Below are positions 5,780-10,949 of a stretch of 13,663 bases of DNA, in pieces (within the stretch, counting starts at the first letter, position 1; each line of letters opens with the position of its first letter). The stretch is from Sulfurimonas sp. GTDB taxonomy: Bacteria > Campylobacterota > Campylobacteria > Campylobacterales > Sulfurimonadaceae. The notes under the pieces were generated by a model. The model saw only the letters and a program-made list of their open reading frames with translations, was not told where the DNA came from and searched no databases. The stretch lies in the NCBI GenBank assembly GCA_026987995.1, contig JALSMC010000191.1:1-13663 (forward strand), read 5' to 3'. The position numbers and the translations under genes were made by a program.

Positions 5780-6406
5780 TTATTCTTCTATATCTTCCCA
5801 TCTTTGCACAAATTCATTTATTTTAATATGTGGAATCTTAAGTCTTGCAGTCAAGGCTATCTGTTTAAGCACTTTTGCCGCTACATCTAAGTCATCATTT
5901 ATCACTATAAAATCATACTCAGATGTTCTTTGTATCTCACGACGTGCTACTTGAATACGCCCCTCAATAATTTCTTTTGAATCTGTTGAGCGTTTTTCTA
6001 AACGTCTTTTTAACTCAGAGAGTGTTGGAGGTGTAATAAAGATAGAGGTTGTAATATCCCCAAGTCTATTCTTAACAGCCATATTTCCTTGAACATCTAT
6101 GTCAAAAATAACAAGTTTTCCTTCTGACAGAGCTTGACGAACAGGATGCAAAGAAGTTCCATAGTAGTTTCCGTGTACAGTTGCATACTCTAAGAAGTTA
6201 TCTGCTTCTATATCTTTGACAAACTCTTCTTTACTTACAAAGTGGTAATCTACACCCTCTGCTTCACCCTTTCTCATAGGTCGAGTTGTTGTAGATAATG
6301 AGAAATAATAATCCCCTATCTCATCTGATATTTTATTTATTAGTGAACTTTTTCCTGCTCCACTCGGTCCTGAAAGAACAAGAACTACTCCGTTATGTTC
6401 TATCAC
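5780..6406 (-). CDS. gmk: guanylate kinase
   Basis: Converts GMP plus ATP to GDP plus ADP in purine nucleotide salvage and synthesis. The 208 residues are of standard length. The P-loop GPSGAGKS is at 13-20, the GMP-binding STTTRPMRKGEAEGVDYHFV block at about 38-57, EYATVHGNYYGT follows it, and DIDVQGN is the Walker B region. RRLEKRSTDSKEIIEGR corresponds to the lid. The start is GTG at 6404-6406, overlapping the TAG of the upstream Glu-rich gene by one base (TAGTG). It has a strong AGGAGA ribosome-binding site six bases upstream, which fixes this start and implies coupled translation. Confidence 0.96.
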   Translation of the reverse strand: MIEHNGVVLVLSGPSGAGKSSLINKISDEIGDYYFSLSTTTRPMRKGEAEGVDYHFVSKEEFVKDIEADNFLEYATVHGNYYGTSLHPVRQALSEGKLVIFDIDVQGNMAVKNRLGDITTSIFITPPTLSELKRRLEKRSTDSKEIIEGRIQVARREIQRTSEYDFIVINDDLDVAAKVLKQIALTARLKIPHIKINEFVQRWEDIEE

Positions 6407-7881
6407 TAACTATCTCCTAATGTAATGTTGATACTAATTTTCATACCCTTCATAGAAGCTGCTACATTTTTATCACTCAGTGCAGCGAGAAGATTTTTTA
6501 GTGCTTCAACACCACTATTTTCCTCTACTGCAATCTCTTCATCAACTACTGCTACTTCTTCATTAACTTCATCTTCAGCTAATGCTTCTACAGGCTCTTC
6601 TTCTTCTTGGAAATCTTCAACTTCTGCTTCAGCTTCAACTTCTGCTTCAGCTTCAACTTCTTCTTCTGTTTCATCTATCTCTTCACCCATTGCAAGCTTT
6701 ATATCTTTACTCGTTAAAGAGTCCAAATCACCTGAAACAATGTCTAAAAGTGTCTCTTCATCTATTTCACTCTCTAACTCTTCTTCACTCAAGTCATCTA
6801 CAGCATTTTCTATCTGTGAAGCAATATCAAGATCAGCCTCTTCTTCAATTTCTTCTTCAATTTCTTCTTCAATTTCTTCTTCAAGTTCTGGTTCTTGTTC
6901 TGGTTCTTCTACTTCAGACACTTCTTCAACTTCTGATTCTTCTTCAATTTCAGGCTCTTCTTCAGCTTCAATTTCTTCTTCAAGTTCTGGTTCTTGTTCT
7001 GGTTCTTCTACTTCAGACACTTCTTCAACTTCTGCTTCAGGCTCAGATTCTTTTTCAACTTCTTCTTCTTCAGGCTCAGACTCTTCTTCAACTTCTACTT
7101 CTTCTTCAAGAATCAACTCTTCTTCAAGCTTAGGTTCATCTTCAAGAATCAATTCTTCTTCATCTTCAGACTCTTCTTCAGGTTCATCTTCAAGAATCAA
7201 TTCTTCTTCGTCTTCAGATTCTTCTTCTAAAACTAATTCTTCAAGATCTTCTTCTTCATCAAGATTTATATCCATTTCTGTTTCTTCAAGTAAATCTTTT
7301 ACTTTTTGTGCTTCCTCATCATCTAAAACACTTTCACCAGAACTATCATCTTCTAAATCCTCAAGACTTAACTCTTCATCGAGGTCTTCAAGTTCCTCTA
7401 GTCCATCGAGCTCTTCAAGTTCATCTTCTAAACCATCCAGTTCTTCTAAATCCTCTAGTTCTTCTATCTCACCTAAGTCTTCTAGCTCTGCTAGAACTTC
7501 TTCTTCTCCAACAGCTTCATCAACAGCACTATCTTCTTCTAACACACTGATGTCAATTTCATCAGATTCTTTACTAAACACAGAAAAAAGTTCCACTAAG
7601 TCTGTCGGTAAAAATGGTTTTTTGAGTATTTTAGTAAAGCCATCTACCTCTTGGGCATCACGAGAACATATATAAAGTGATGTAGAGTAGGTAACTTTTT
7701 CATTGAGTTGCATATACAATGAATCACTATAAAGTGTGTCATCTATAACTACTAAATCATAAGTAGTAGATTCTATAGCATCTAAAGATTCAACAACTTC
7801 AAGATTATCAGAGGTTTTTTGAGCACTAAGTGTAACAAGTTTATTTACGACAGGATTGTCATTTATGAGTAAAATATTCAC
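6406..7881 (-). CDS. glutamate-rich protein with receiver-like N-terminal domain
   Basis: 491-residue, extremely acidic protein. Residues 1-105 look like a divergent response-regulator receiver domain: ILLINDNP (Asp8), DLVVIDD (Asp47/48), YICS (Ser73) and KKPF (Lys88-Pro89) match the acidic pocket, phospho-acceptor, Ser/Thr and Lys positions of CheY-like folds. Residues from about 106 to 440 are low-complexity Glu/Asp/Leu/Val repeats, probably disordered or extended helix. The last 35 residues (EALKNLLAALSDKNVAASMKGMKISINITLGDS) are ordinary sequence and likely a conserved terminal module. The start is GTG at 7879-7881 with AAGGA six bases upstream. Position between fliR and gmk matches the 'highly acidic protein' Cj1178c of C. 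jejuni and the 'poly E-rich protein' HP0322 of H. pylori as I remember them. Function is not established; the neighbour fliR suggests a flagellar or polar role. Confidence 0.85.
   Translation of the reverse strand: MNILLINDNPVVNKLVTLSAQKTSDNLEVVESLDAIESTTYDLVVIDDTLYSDSLYMQLNEKVTYSTSLYICSRDAQEVDGFTKILKKPFLPTDLVELFSVFSKESDEIDISVLEEDSAVDEAVGEEEVLAELEDLGEIEELEDLEELDGLEDELEELDGLEELEDLDEELSLEDLEDDSSGESVLDDEEAQKVKDLLEETEMDINLDEEEDLEELVLEEESEDEEELILEDEPEEESEDEEELILEDEPKLEEELILEEEVEVEEESEPEEEEVEKESEPEAEVEEVSEVEEPEQEPELEEEIEAEEEPEIEEESEVEEVSEVEEPEQEPELEEEIEEEIEEEIEEEADLDIASQIENAVDDLSEEELESEIDEETLLDIVSGDLDSLTSKDIKLAMGEEIDETEEEVEAEAEVEAEAEVEDFQEEEEPVEALAEDEVNEEVAVVDEEIAVEENSGVEALKNLLAALSDKNVAASMKGMKISINITLGDS
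6615..6661. repeat. 18-bp tandem repeat inside the Glu-rich gene
   Basis: Two exact copies of CTTCAACTTCTGCTTCAG (6615-6632, 6633-6650) plus 11 bases of a third. They encode EVEAEA hexapeptides on the minus strand. The unit is a multiple of three, so copy-number changes keep the frame. Confidence 0.9.
6840..6884. repeat. 12-bp tandem repeat inside the Glu-rich gene
   Basis: Three exact copies of CTTCTTCAATTT (6840-6851, 6852-6863, 6864-6875) and a partial fourth. They encode repeated EEIE on the minus strand. The array is all-pyrimidine on the + strand apart from the AA pair of each unit. Confidence 0.9.
6867..7034. repeat. 69-bp exact direct repeat inside the Glu-rich gene
   Basis: Bases 6867-6935 and 6966-7034 are identical, offset by 99 bases (33 codons). 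They encode two copies of a block containing EVSEVEEPEQEPELEEEI. Identity at silent positions indicates a recent duplication or gene-conversion event rather than only selection for acidic residues. Confidence 0.92.
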
Positions 7882-9393: not shown

Positions 9394-10605
9394 TTACTCA
9401 TCAAATATCTTTTTGCAACCTATACAAGAATGCATGTCTAATCTTTTTGAGTATACTCTTTCTATCATTTTTTTCATTATATAAGCAAAATATCCATTGA
9501 TATAGATTCCGAAAACTTTTGCTGTTGCATAACGACGACCTAAGGCTATAAGAATTCCTCGAGAATGTATCTTATGTTCTTGTAACTTTTGACCTTTTTG
9601 ATCGTGTTTGATATTTTTCGAGCACAGTACACCCATCTGCTCTGCTATATCCGCTGTTGGTGCGAGTATATTTTCATCTTTATCTCTGAGTGTTGTGCAG
9701 TCACCTATGGCATAAACATTTTTATACTCTAGTGTTTGAAGCGTAGGTTTTGTTTGGATGTAGCCTCTTTCATTTTTTTCTAATTTTAGATTAAATACTA
9801 CACCATTTGGTTCAATTCCTCCAGCAAAAATCATAAAATCCATAAATACTTTTTCACCACTACTAAGTGTTACAGATGTTTTTGTTAATGCGACGACTTT
9901 TTGCTTGTTTTTTATCACTACCTCTAAATCTAAAAGTCTTTTAATAGACTTATCAACTAGGTGTTTATCCATTCCAAAAAGTATATGTTCTGCAGCATTC
10001 ACAAGTATGATGTTGAGTTTTCGACATATAAAATTATTCTGCTTATAAAACTCTTTAGCAAAAGATGCCATCTGTGCAGCTATCTCTACTCCGCTCAACC
10101 CTGCCCCTGCTATAACTATACTCAAGGGTGTACATGTCGCCCCACCCTCATCCACTTTCTTAAACAAGGACATCTCAAACTTTTGCTTAAAGTACATCGC
10201 TCGGTGTAGTGCTTTTATACCATAAGCATACTCTCGTAGACCTTCTACATTTGTAGCAAATTTCGTACGTGAACCTACTGCTATAACAAGATAATCATAA
10301 CTTAACCTATCAGTAGTAGTGATGACTTTATTATTTTTAAAGTCCATATTTGTAACTTCTCTCTTGCAAAAACTTACATTAGAATTTTTAAAACCACTAC
10401 AGTATGTGAAAAGGTCTAGTGTGATTTGTGCAAAGTCTTCTTCATTTGCGATGAGATCATAAACTTCTGTTTGCATATAATGGTAGGGATTTTTATCTAA
10501 GAGGATTATTTCATTGTCAGGGTTTTTCGCAAGGTTTTTAACAGTCTGTATACCTGCATAACCACCACCGATAACAATAATTTTATGTTTTTGATTTTCG
10601 TTCAT
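9394..10605 (-). CDS. FAD-dependent NAD(P)H dehydrogenase, NDH-2-like
   Basis: 403-residue flavoprotein of the pyridine nucleotide-disulfide reductase fold. The FAD-binding motif VIGGGYAGIQ is at 11-20, a second Rossmann motif IAGAGLSGVEIA for NAD(P)H is at about 165-176, and the second FAD motif VYAIGDCT is at about 298-304. PTADIAEQMG near 316 sits where NDH-2 enzymes have the quinone-site AQxAxQ motif. A C-terminal amphipathic segment, including FGIYINGYFAYIMKKMIERV, would attach it to the inner membrane face. It probably passes electrons from NADH to quinone without proton pumping; sulfide:quinone reductase is less likely because paired redox cysteines in the core are not evident. A C-terminal CIGC (394-397) is unusual. 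The ATG lacks a Shine-Dalgarno and follows an extended -10 promoter by five bases. In C. jejuni, as I recall, tsf and the ABC ATPase are adjacent, so this gene may be inserted. Confidence 0.85.
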   Translation of the reverse strand: MNENQKHKIIVIGGGYAGIQTVKNLAKNPDNEIILLDKNPYHYMQTEVYDLIANEEDFAQITLDLFTYCSGFKNSNVSFCKREVTNMDFKNNKVITTTDRLSYDYLVIAVGSRTKFATNVEGLREYAYGIKALHRAMYFKQKFEMSLFKKVDEGGATCTPLSIVIAGAGLSGVEIAAQMASFAKEFYKQNNFICRKLNIILVNAAEHILFGMDKHLVDKSIKRLLDLEVVIKNKQKVVALTKTSVTLSSGEKVFMDFMIFAGGIEPNGVVFNLKLEKNERGYIQTKPTLQTLEYKNVYAIGDCTTLRDKDENILAPTADIAEQMGVLCSKNIKHDQKGQKLQEHKIHSRGILIALGRRYATAKVFGIYINGYFAYIMKKMIERVYSKRLDMHSCIGCKKIFDE

Positions 10606-10610
10606 TAGAG

Positions 10611-10619
10611 ATTATATCA
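10611..10619 (-). promoter_or_regulatory. extended -10 promoter at the NDH-2-like start codon
   Basis: Minus-strand TGATATAAT (TGn plus perfect TATAAT), followed by CTCTA and the ATG of the flavoprotein gene. Transcription should start at or within a base or two of the ATG. No ribosome-binding site could fit, so a leaderless or near-leaderless mRNA is the simplest reading. Confidence 0.55.
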
Positions 10620-10641
10620 TGTTAAAAATTATTTTGTTTGA

Positions 10642-10727
10642 AATAGTAGTCAGAGGGGTAACTAATCCCTCTGTTTGATTAATGCAATAATGGTGCAAGC
10701 ACCATCATGATTAAAAAGACTACTATT
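10642..10727 (-). other. predicted three-stem RNA fold over the small hydrophobic ORF and its 3' region
   Basis: A 9-bp outer stem pairs 10642-10650 (AATAGTAGT on +) with 10719-10727. It encloses hairpin CAGAGGG/CCCTCTG (10651-10657 with 10667-10673, 9-nt loop) and hairpin ATGGTG-CAAG-CACCAT (10690-10705). In the minus-strand sense the outer stem ties codons 5-8 of the small ORF to its 3' region, and the second hairpin lies wholly inside the ORF. All Watson-Crick, hand-folded. The structure could limit translation of the ORF or act as its mRNA 3' end; no U-tract follows, so it is not a classical terminator. Confidence 0.5.
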
Positions 10728-10741
10728 AGCTTACTGTTCAA
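10679..10741 (-). CDS. candidate 20-residue hydrophobic peptide, possible type I toxin
   Basis: A short minus-strand ORF starts at TTG (10739-10741) and ends at TAA (10679-10681). It encodes MNSKL followed by IVVFLIMMVLAPLLH: one charged residue near the N terminus, then an uninterrupted hydrophobic run long enough to enter a membrane. AAAGG (complement of 10749-10753) lies seven bases before the TTG, and an in-frame TGA six codons upstream rules out a longer version. Size and composition resemble the Ibs toxins of E. coli type I toxin-antitoxin loci (18-19 residues), but there is no sequence-family match I can claim. Its ribosome-binding region is complementary over 18 of 21 bases to the start of a predicted small RNA immediately upstream. 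No strong promoter of its own is seen; a TTGGAT where the upstream repeat copy has TATAAT may be a weakened -10. It could also be a chance ORF. Confidence 0.4.
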   Translation of the reverse strand: MNSKLIVVFLIMMVLAPLLH

Positions 10742-10886
10742 GGTAGAGCCTTTATGTCAAGCTCCCACCCACCACACAATCCAACCAAAAATTTGGCAAA
10801 AAAAAAGGTTAAGACCTAAGCCTTAACCTTTTCACTCAACATGAACTTGGTAGTTAATCAAGTTTATAAAGGAGTTACCTTGAACA
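10735..10886. repeat. 21-base inverted repeat pair (18/21) flanking a terminator
   Basis: The left arm 10735-10755 (TGTTCAAGGTA-gag-CCTTTAT) and the right arm 10866-10886 (ATAAAGG-agt-TACCTTGAACA) are complementary except for three central bases. On the minus strand the right arm is the predicted 5' end of a small RNA, and the left arm is the Shine-Dalgarno plus TTG start region of the hydrophobic ORF. The pair can interact between two RNAs, or within one read-through RNA. Confidence 0.9.
10798..10832 (-). terminator. intrinsic terminator, copy 1 (end of candidate sRNA)
   Basis: In minus-strand RNA, AAAAGGUUAAG pairs with CUUAACCUUUU and an inner G-U and C-G pair closes a UUAG tetraloop, followed by nine U residues. 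The + strand side has only four T residues, so it works mainly for minus-strand transcription. It would end the small RNA begun near 10888. Confidence 0.88.
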
Positions 10887-10888
10887 TC
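10798..10888 (-). ncRNA. candidate small RNA, about 91 nt, possible antitoxin
   Basis: Defined by an extended -10 promoter (10895-10903) and a strong intrinsic terminator ending at 10798. The predicted start is G at about 10888. Nucleotides 3-23 (complement of 10866-10886) contain CUCCUUUAU and match, in antisense, the ribosome-binding site and TTG start of the small hydrophobic ORF downstream. A central hairpin pairs AACTTG/CAAGTT (10844-10849 with 10859-10864), and the 3' end is the terminator hairpin with nine U residues, as in many Hfq-independent regulators. The arrangement resembles OrzO or IstR-1 antitoxin RNAs, which lie beside their toxin gene and pair over a similar length. Evidence is purely from sequence signals. 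An alternative is that promoter and terminator are by-products of a terminator duplication. Confidence 0.45.
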
Positions 10889-10894
10889 AATAAA

Positions 10895-10903
10895 ATTATA
10901 CCA
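10895..10903 (-). promoter_or_regulatory. extended -10 promoter of the candidate sRNA
   Basis: Minus-strand TGGTATAAT, a perfect -10 with TGn extension, directly after the T-tract and palindrome of terminator copy 2. The start would be at about 10888, seven bases downstream. No good -35 is present; the upstream area is the T-rich tract of the terminator, similar to the T-rich upstream regions typical of Campylobacter sigma70 promoters. Confidence 0.55.
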
Positions 10904-10914
10904 AAAAATTTGGC

Positions 10915-10949
10915 AAAAAAAAAGGTTAAGACCGAAGCCTTAACCTTTT
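10915..10949 (-). terminator. intrinsic terminator of rpsB-tsf, copy 2
   Basis: In minus-strand RNA, AAAAGGUUAAG and CUUAACCUUUU form the stem, extended by G-U and C-G pairs to a very stable cUUCGg tetraloop, followed by nine U residues. It begins 31 bases after the tsf stop codon and is the strongest terminator in the window. Confidence 0.94.

Follow-up and report, generated by a model that had tools for sequence, protein, structure and literature searches.

The window analysed here, a stretch of 13,663 nucleotides from Sulfurimonas sp., carries on its minus strand a predicted small RNA (sRNA) followed by a very short hydrophobic open reading frame (ORF), between an upstream gene which we take to be tsf and a downstream oxidoreductase gene (Pyr_redox_2). 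A first-pass annotation of this DNA had proposed an extended -10 promoter, an RNA of about 91 nt ended by an intrinsic terminator, and an ORF for a hydrophobic peptide of 20 residues; the sequence confirms promoter, RNA and ORF on the minus strand, and the terminator is present in the fold (Table 1). The annotation had also claimed that 18 of 21 bases at the 5' end of the RNA are complementary to the Shine-Dalgarno (SD) sequence and TTG start codon of the ORF, and this was borne out (segment A, 10886-10866, against segment A', 10755-10735). Two further contacts, which it had not described, are seen in the window: sRNA 10842-10835 is complementary to leader 10761-10754, and the sRNA loop 10856-10851 to the loop 10664-10659 of a hairpin located 3' of the ORF.

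Table 1. Predicted parts of the module in the window (all on the minus strand).
Feature	Position	Strand	Basis
sRNA promoter, extended -10 (GGTATAATTTTATTG)	10888..10902	-	sequence; putative +1 near 10888
Antitoxin-like predicted sRNA, about 91 nt	10798..10888	-	sequence; fold z -3.08
sRNA segment A, partner of SD and start codon (A')	10866..10886	-	18/21 bases
sRNA hairpin H; hexamer UAACUA in its apical loop (10856-10851)	10844..10864	-	complement of H' loop hexamer
sRNA segment C (AUGUUGAG), partner of leader C', two G-U	10835..10842	-	duplex energies over 38 modules
Terminator hairpin with U-run, separating the sRNA from the toxin ORF	10798..10832	-	fold
G-rich box of toxin leader (GGTGGGTGGGAG; GGGTGGGA for the window and relatives)	10762..10773	-	conserved in alignments
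Leader segment C'	10754..10761	-	partner of C
Segment A', SD and start codon, target of A	10735..10755	-	complementarity
ORF, TTG...TAA, 20 codons, hydrophobic peptide MNSKLIVVFLIMMVLAPLLH	10679..10741	-	sequence
Three-way structure; stem 10727-10718/10651-10642 closes ORF-internal hairpin and H'	10642..10727	-	191-nt fold, z -3.51
3' hairpin H', loop hexamer UAGUUA at 10664-10659, partner of sRNA loop	10651..10673	-	loop complementarity

Of the 21 consensus pairs in the three-way structure, 11 carry a compensatory change on both sides in one or more of 18 sequences. The G-rich box is kept across genera, including outside Sulfurimonas, and is placed outside the three contacts; a role as a G-quadruplex was considered for it by eye. 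A consensus promoter and terminator scan, which also requires a -35 hexamer, gave no promoter at 10888; it found the tsf terminator (10949-10920) but not the sRNA terminator (10832-10798), and on the plus strand near the module it returned one promoter-like site matching 9 of 12 positions (10591-10620), the sRNA itself lying on the same strand as the ORF. The two terminators (10904-10949 and about 10788-10832) match at 98% over 46 bases; as direct repeats they flank the sRNA, and recombination there would remove the antitoxin part. Elsewhere in the window, positions 6406-7881 of the minus strand encode a protein of 491 residues that includes a very long Glu-rich stretch, opposite which lie long Ser-rich ORFs that are probably spurious.

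The best duplex between the sRNA body and the toxin mRNA of the window has an energy of -33.3 kcal/mol, and 2000 pairs of dinucleotide shuffles gave a mean of -24.4 kcal/mol (sd 3.6, lowest -37.9; z -2.5). Since 33 of these 2000 pairs equal or beat the window duplex, the locus by itself is modest evidence. As far as sequences can tell, it is the comparative tests, rather than the window locus, that exclude chance complementarity. Relatives were collected by two routes. Searching 60 genomes by blastn gave matches in 14, including the window's own, all of one genus; in G005, G009 and G010 a match is present and the module absent there. Among the 24 blastn loci read, 16 are full modules, five are tsf terminators only, one is cut by a contig end, one is a chance match and one is degenerate. 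The window's own genome holds a second, diverged copy with equal parts in different letters, flanked by genes that are presumably ilvC and bioD. A pattern of the 3' hairpin, scanned over named genome contigs, gave 41 matches. The 39 stretches that contain them belong to Sulfurimonas, Sulfuricurvum, Sulfurospirillum and Helicobacteraceae/Campylobacteraceae records, apart from one chance match in Peribacteria; the matches comprise 20 new full modules, seven duplicates, seven members of a sibling family (one without an ORF), five partial copies, one CRISPR spacer and the chance match. The set of 38 modules used below consists of 16 from blastn, 20 from the pattern, the window and L002, full modules having been picked by reading and duplicates or incomplete copies removed.

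Partial or degenerate modules were seen at L033, L039, L045, L048, L059 (first match) and L063; L033 and L063 seem to keep sRNA parts but no complete toxin ORF, which is how solitary antitoxins would look. The sibling family, represented by five loci in Sulfuricurvum and two in Helicobacteraceae (L047, L050, L058, L060, L064, L071, and L042 without an ORF), has a related layout, in which an sRNA with terminator loop ATTAATTA is followed by an ORF for a peptide of MDKLLFALLLMCIFAPMLN type. Cognate pairing in the six members that have an ORF stands at -42.0 versus -23.1, the lowest among all 720 permutations.

All 38 modules have the same order of parts: a promoter, an sRNA of about 90 nt with a hairpin, a terminator, a G-rich leader, a hydrophobic ORF of 18-21 codons (for example MFSKIVVVFLIIMVFAPLLH and MYRIVILLLILGYLTKLF) and a 3' hairpin. 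In 38/38 a TATAAT or TATACT hexamer (TACAAT in L044, TACACT in L067) lies upstream of the sRNA; 35 modules were parsed by requiring the -10 hexamer and three entered through relaxed parsing, and because promoter, U-run and 3' hairpin were demanded by the parsing, their presence throughout is partly by construction. A terminator-like stem, which was no parsing criterion, has at least 8 pairs reaching the U-run in every module. The tandem, co-directional order of sRNA and ORF, called unusual in the first-pass annotation, likewise holds in 38/38. In the 30 ORFs of 20 codons, mean entropy at codon positions 1, 2 and 3 is 0.88, 0.41 and 1.06, which, judged from these sequences, is the pattern expected of a conserved hydrophobic peptide. 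The earlier remark that the peptide resembles no nameable family agrees with our searches, in which no fitting Pfam, NCBIfam or Rfam family was found. Membership in a Pfam or NCBIfam toxin family was rejected, as eight peptides gave one sub-threshold match in each of the two collections, to a transporter and a translocase model; Ibs was not among the matches of these eight, and peptides of 20 residues lie near the detection limit. Rfam gave no match in the window at the gathering score, and 19 chance-like matches at E up to 10, the best (E 0.019) to a microRNA model and far below its cut-off.

The first-pass annotation had suggested looking in relatives for the same pair with compensatory changes, and across the 38 modules the complementarity does vary together, at three contacts. 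Contact i, between the sRNA 5' end and the SD and start codon, has a cognate mean of -23.06 kcal/mol versus -11.96 kcal/mol for non-cognate pairs (z -17.8); the sRNA pairs best with its own mRNA in 25/38, and the target with its own sRNA in 24/38. Contact ii, between the sRNA segment after the hairpin and the leader just 5' of the SD, gives -12.12 versus -6.95 kcal/mol (z -14.6; -8.6 kcal/mol in the window), with the own partner best in 18/38 by sRNA and 13/38 by target. None of 20000 permutations reaches either cognate mean, in tests that ignore ancestry, for which the nearest-relative swap below corrects in part. For contact iii, the sRNA of each of the 38 modules carries the exact Watson-Crick complement of the H' loop hexamer, of which there are seven types, and in 36 modules this complement falls within the predicted apical loop; it occurs in 119 of 930 control pairings between modules with different loop types. 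The predicted parts of the module and these three co-varying complementarities are what sequence comparison gives. Such covariation is, as sequence evidence, compatible both with pairing in trans and with folding in cis, and we return to this below.

When each sRNA was swapped with that of the nearest relative, chosen by likeness of the ORF and 3' hairpin, mean pairing weakened from -24.85 to -16.98 kcal/mol, the own pair being stronger in 104/118 (Wilcoxon 1.5e-18). Relatives 80-90% alike show the same (41/43); where modules lack a close relative, the own pair was stronger in just 4/7. Within genomes, paralogues seem largely insulated from each other: for 36 modules in 13 genomes, 70 of 74 comparisons gave a weaker pairing of the target with a paralogue's sRNA than with its own, and the two copies of the window's genome have own pairs at -27.8 and -26.2 and cross pairs at -17.4 and -14.8.

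A held-out set was obtained with a covariance model built from the toxin half alone. From its matches 110 were taken, mostly the stronger ones, and 23 duplicates among them leave 87; matches seen to be redundant or truncated at a contig end were left unfetched, the match L120 on plasmid pSULKU04 was omitted, and of the 24 matches in the genus weaker than 4e-7, L133 alone was read. A hydrophobic ORF of 15-26 codons is present in 81/87, six having no ORF under the rule used, and a U-run lies near the expected place in 84/87. Copies that are apparently decaying, with a changed ORF start or stop or rearranged surroundings, were seen at L117, L133, L155, L157, L161 and L165. Removing the six matches without an ORF, and L109 with too little upstream sequence, leaves 80. 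In these, the upstream region, unseen by the model, pairs with its own leader at -27.71 kcal/mol versus -17.03 kcal/mol (z -27.9; 0/20000 permutations), and this leader is its best partner in 43/80 and in the top 5% in 67/80; in L127, L136, L173 and L194 the own pair falls outside the best 20%. The pairing segment begins at most 25 nt from a TATAAT-like hexamer in 57/80. The loop match, over 26 hexamers, is found in 61/79 versus 683/5250 between modules with different loops; it is missing in 18/79, among them the loci L134-L136 of family f14.

These results also bear on whether the locus might simply belong to a REP-like family of structured repeats or terminators, in which the ORF and the complementarity would be fortuitous. 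The 98% likeness of the tsf and sRNA terminators over 46 bases, and the five of 24 blastn loci that are tsf terminators only, would fit such a family, which is nonetheless contradicted by the held-out co-variation (z -27.9), the ORF in 81/87 held-out matches, the codon-position pattern and the nearest-relative and paralogue swaps; we regard it as extremely improbable.

The toxin-half model matches 60 of 135 Sulfurimonas genomes and, across the phylum, 29 of 397 sampled genomes in 9 of 68 genera, the window's own genome being counted in both samples; the matches in one of these nine genera (family f14) are weak. At the f14 loci L134, L135 and L136 short hydrophobic peptides (MKLIIVLVVMMVFASPLY) were seen, and the tandem sRNA is not evident. 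L020 has tsf, a terminator and the same oxidoreductase gene with no module, and represents an empty site for the window's locus. Two plasmids carry a module: pSULKU04, a 3.4-kb mobilizable plasmid of Sulfuricurvum kujiense, and pACIB from Aliarcobacter cibarius. The pACIB copy shows 77% identity to the L119 query across 77% of that query, and its parts were identified by reading. No annotated feature lies beneath these two matches in a gene table that is incomplete. The 7.6-kb viral contig L140 (IMGVR_UViG_3300027373_000061) carries a module with all parts at about 6879-7150, and resembles a filamentous phage by its M13 pIV-like secretin (E 5.7e-46), Zot-like protein and Mrr-type endonuclease domain. 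Moreover, a CRISPR spacer of 34 nt in Sulfurimonas sp. RIFOXYD12 (L054:5661-5694), within an array of more than 110 repeats, is identical to window positions 10676-10643. The window's own module had no match in the phage collection, and an Arcobacter-type hairpin pattern gave none in viral contigs; the candidates L138, L139 and L141 were rejected as chance matches to a coding pattern. In eight other viral contigs (L075-L077, L079-L083) a hairpin GAGGGATTAATTACCCCTC lies directly 3' of TATAAT; in those read further it stands right before a start codon with short repeats on either side, a different leader structure.

This distribution has to be weighed against the possibility that the peptide is a non-toxic small membrane protein under sRNA control, such as an on-demand modulator of a membrane complex. 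Peptide length and pattern are conserved, which would suit such a protein, the toxic role being our deduction; and a copy lies directly upstream of a bioD-like gene (a name we assume) in four Sulfurimonas genomes (L002, L019, L021, L034). The patchy presence (60/135 genomes of the genus), the several largely insulated copies per genome and the copies borne by two plasmids and one phage-like contig, together with the identical CRISPR spacer, suit an addiction-type module better, and we consider the non-toxic protein improbable. We rejected the idea of a riboswitch or leader belonging to the oxidoreductase gene downstream, because the module adjoins unrelated genes elsewhere.

In our view the locus is very probably a co-directional type I toxin-antitoxin-like module. 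The promoter at 10888 would give an antitoxin RNA of about 90 nt that stops at the terminator, and occasional passage of the polymerase through this terminator, or a cryptic promoter, would give the mRNA for a 20-residue membrane peptide. In trans, the apical loop of the sRNA would first kiss the loop of the hairpin 3' of the ORF, after which its two arms would zip onto the leader and the SD and start codon, masking the ribosome-binding site; the resulting duplex might be a substrate of RNase III. If supply of the sRNA ended, a longer-lived mRNA would then yield a peptide that damages the membrane. Transcription, binding order, read-through origin, processing, lifetimes and toxicity are thus the parts of this explanation that we infer. 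For the source of the toxin mRNA, a -10 scoring 5/6 between terminator and SD was found in 1/38 modules, on which ground we rejected a toxin promoter of its own as a general feature, and the distance from U-run to start codon is 40-71 nt; terminator read-through is therefore the likeliest source, and a weak promoter of its own may contribute.

Because the segments are nested in the order A-H-C-terminator-C'-A', an uncut read-through RNA would also cover its SD; with its own 5' end folded over the SD, it would be silent until processed. Indeed, in full-length folds the SD-to-start region is paired with the first 45 nt of the transcript in 32/38, and in folds of the toxin mRNA alone it is paired with something in 31/38. 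The full nesting, these 32/38 folds and the single 5/6 hexamer would equally suit a control exerted in cis only, in which the upstream segment is the 5' half of a long SD-covering leader and the terminator an attenuator. Against this, a terminator-like stem with U-run in 38/38 (the U-run being needed for parsing) should free the leader RNA, and L033 and L063 seem to retain the sRNA parts with the ORF part lost or damaged. The loop-loop complementarity found in 38/38 also speaks against it, such complementarity being a usual mark of intermolecular recognition. Control in cis alone thus appears unlikely, on the understanding that it overlaps the type I-like module and that the two are not mutually exclusive.

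Two of the features expected of a type I system are found here: a small, mostly hydrophobic ORF (38/38 modules; 81/87 held-out matches) and, by sequence complementarity of predicted RNAs, an RNA complementary to its own toxin mRNA. The type I reading of the first-pass annotation is accordingly supported, at the sequence level, by co-varying complementarity, a conserved short hydrophobic ORF, several largely insulated copies per genome and copies on two plasmids and a filamentous-phage-like contig. Its comparison with Ibs/Sib, ZorO/OrzO and TisB/IstR holds for the adjacent complementary sRNA and fails for the orientation, which is neither divergent nor an overlapping antisense one. Ibs/Sib peptides are similar in length and pattern to those of the module, and occur in several copies per genome. 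In E. coli, Sib fully overlaps the ibs coding region (PMC3919570), whereas the module sRNA lies upstream on the same strand. TisAB/IstR, ShoB/OhsC and ZorO/OrzO of E. coli are 'unconventional' type I systems with adjacent, non-overlapping sRNAs and 18-21 nt of complementarity (PMC3919570). The module shares with them a short adjacent sRNA complementary to the toxin mRNA; their sRNAs are divergent, whereas here the sRNA is co-directional (38/38) and makes two further contacts.

In the par(pAD1) system, of the Gram-positive Fst family of type I, Fst and RNA II combine (PMC7472228) loop-loop kissing with a second contact hiding SD and start codon, encode a small membrane peptide and occur on plasmids and chromosomes. 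A kissing loop with a second contact over SD and start codon would be the likeness here, by covariation only. The par genes are convergent, with a shared bidirectional terminator that bears the kissing loops and pairing at direct repeats, whereas the present genes are co-directional and the kissing loop lies within the sRNA and has a hairpin 3' of the ORF as its partner; Fst has 33 residues and a charged tail, compared with 18-21 codons in the 38 modules. In type III systems, an antitoxin RNA, a Rho-independent terminator and a toxin gene follow each other on one strand under one promoter, and read-through sets the ratio (PMC8167048). The RNA-terminator-toxin order is the same here, with a 5/6 hexamer between terminator and SD in 1/38 and a weak promoter possible. 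In type III the RNA consists of a repeat array to which the toxin, an endonuclease protein, binds, unlike the window sRNA, which by reading has no repeat array, precedes a peptide of about 20 residues and would pair with the mRNA. The module is thus like par(pAD1) in its recognition, like TisB/IstR and ZorO/OrzO in its sRNA and like type III in its order, and it fails a defining feature of each. Since adjacent antitoxins may already be 'divergent, convergent or parallel' according to a review (PMC8167048), the parallel order is in itself not new. In the open-access literature we found no description of this module family and no paper joining type I toxin-antitoxin systems with Sulfurimonas.

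Taken together, a fuller reading may be put forward, tentatively and at somewhat under an even chance: a phylum-wide family with a type III-like operon and the mechanism of type I systems, in which the antitoxin would be the prematurely terminated 5' leader of the toxin transcript and leakage of the terminator would set the ratio. The uncut RNA would be silent in cis, and the sRNA, once freed, would act in trans, using a kissing loop and two arms to silence mRNA that has been processed. The inverted arms would turn over fast even between near relatives and stay complementary, insulating paralogues, and templated copying from arm to arm could drive this turnover.

Helicobacter pylori, which shares the window's phylum, has several such systems per genome, AapA/IsoA and AapB/IsoB, with a small hydrophobic peptide and an mRNA whose folding hides the translation signals (PMC8322730). 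There IsoA is antisense and IsoB lies opposite aapB, and these type I systems, described in the phylum, use opposite-strand RNAs, whereas sRNA and ORF are here in tandem on one strand. A family that is co-directional and metered by a terminator, present in Sulfurimonas, Sulfuricurvum, Sulfurospirillum and Aliarcobacter, would contrast with those. It would also supply more than 100 natural RNA pairs (118 used here) for studying the rules of RNA-RNA specificity and compensatory evolution, and would offer a new place to seek plasmid-addiction and phage-defence functions.
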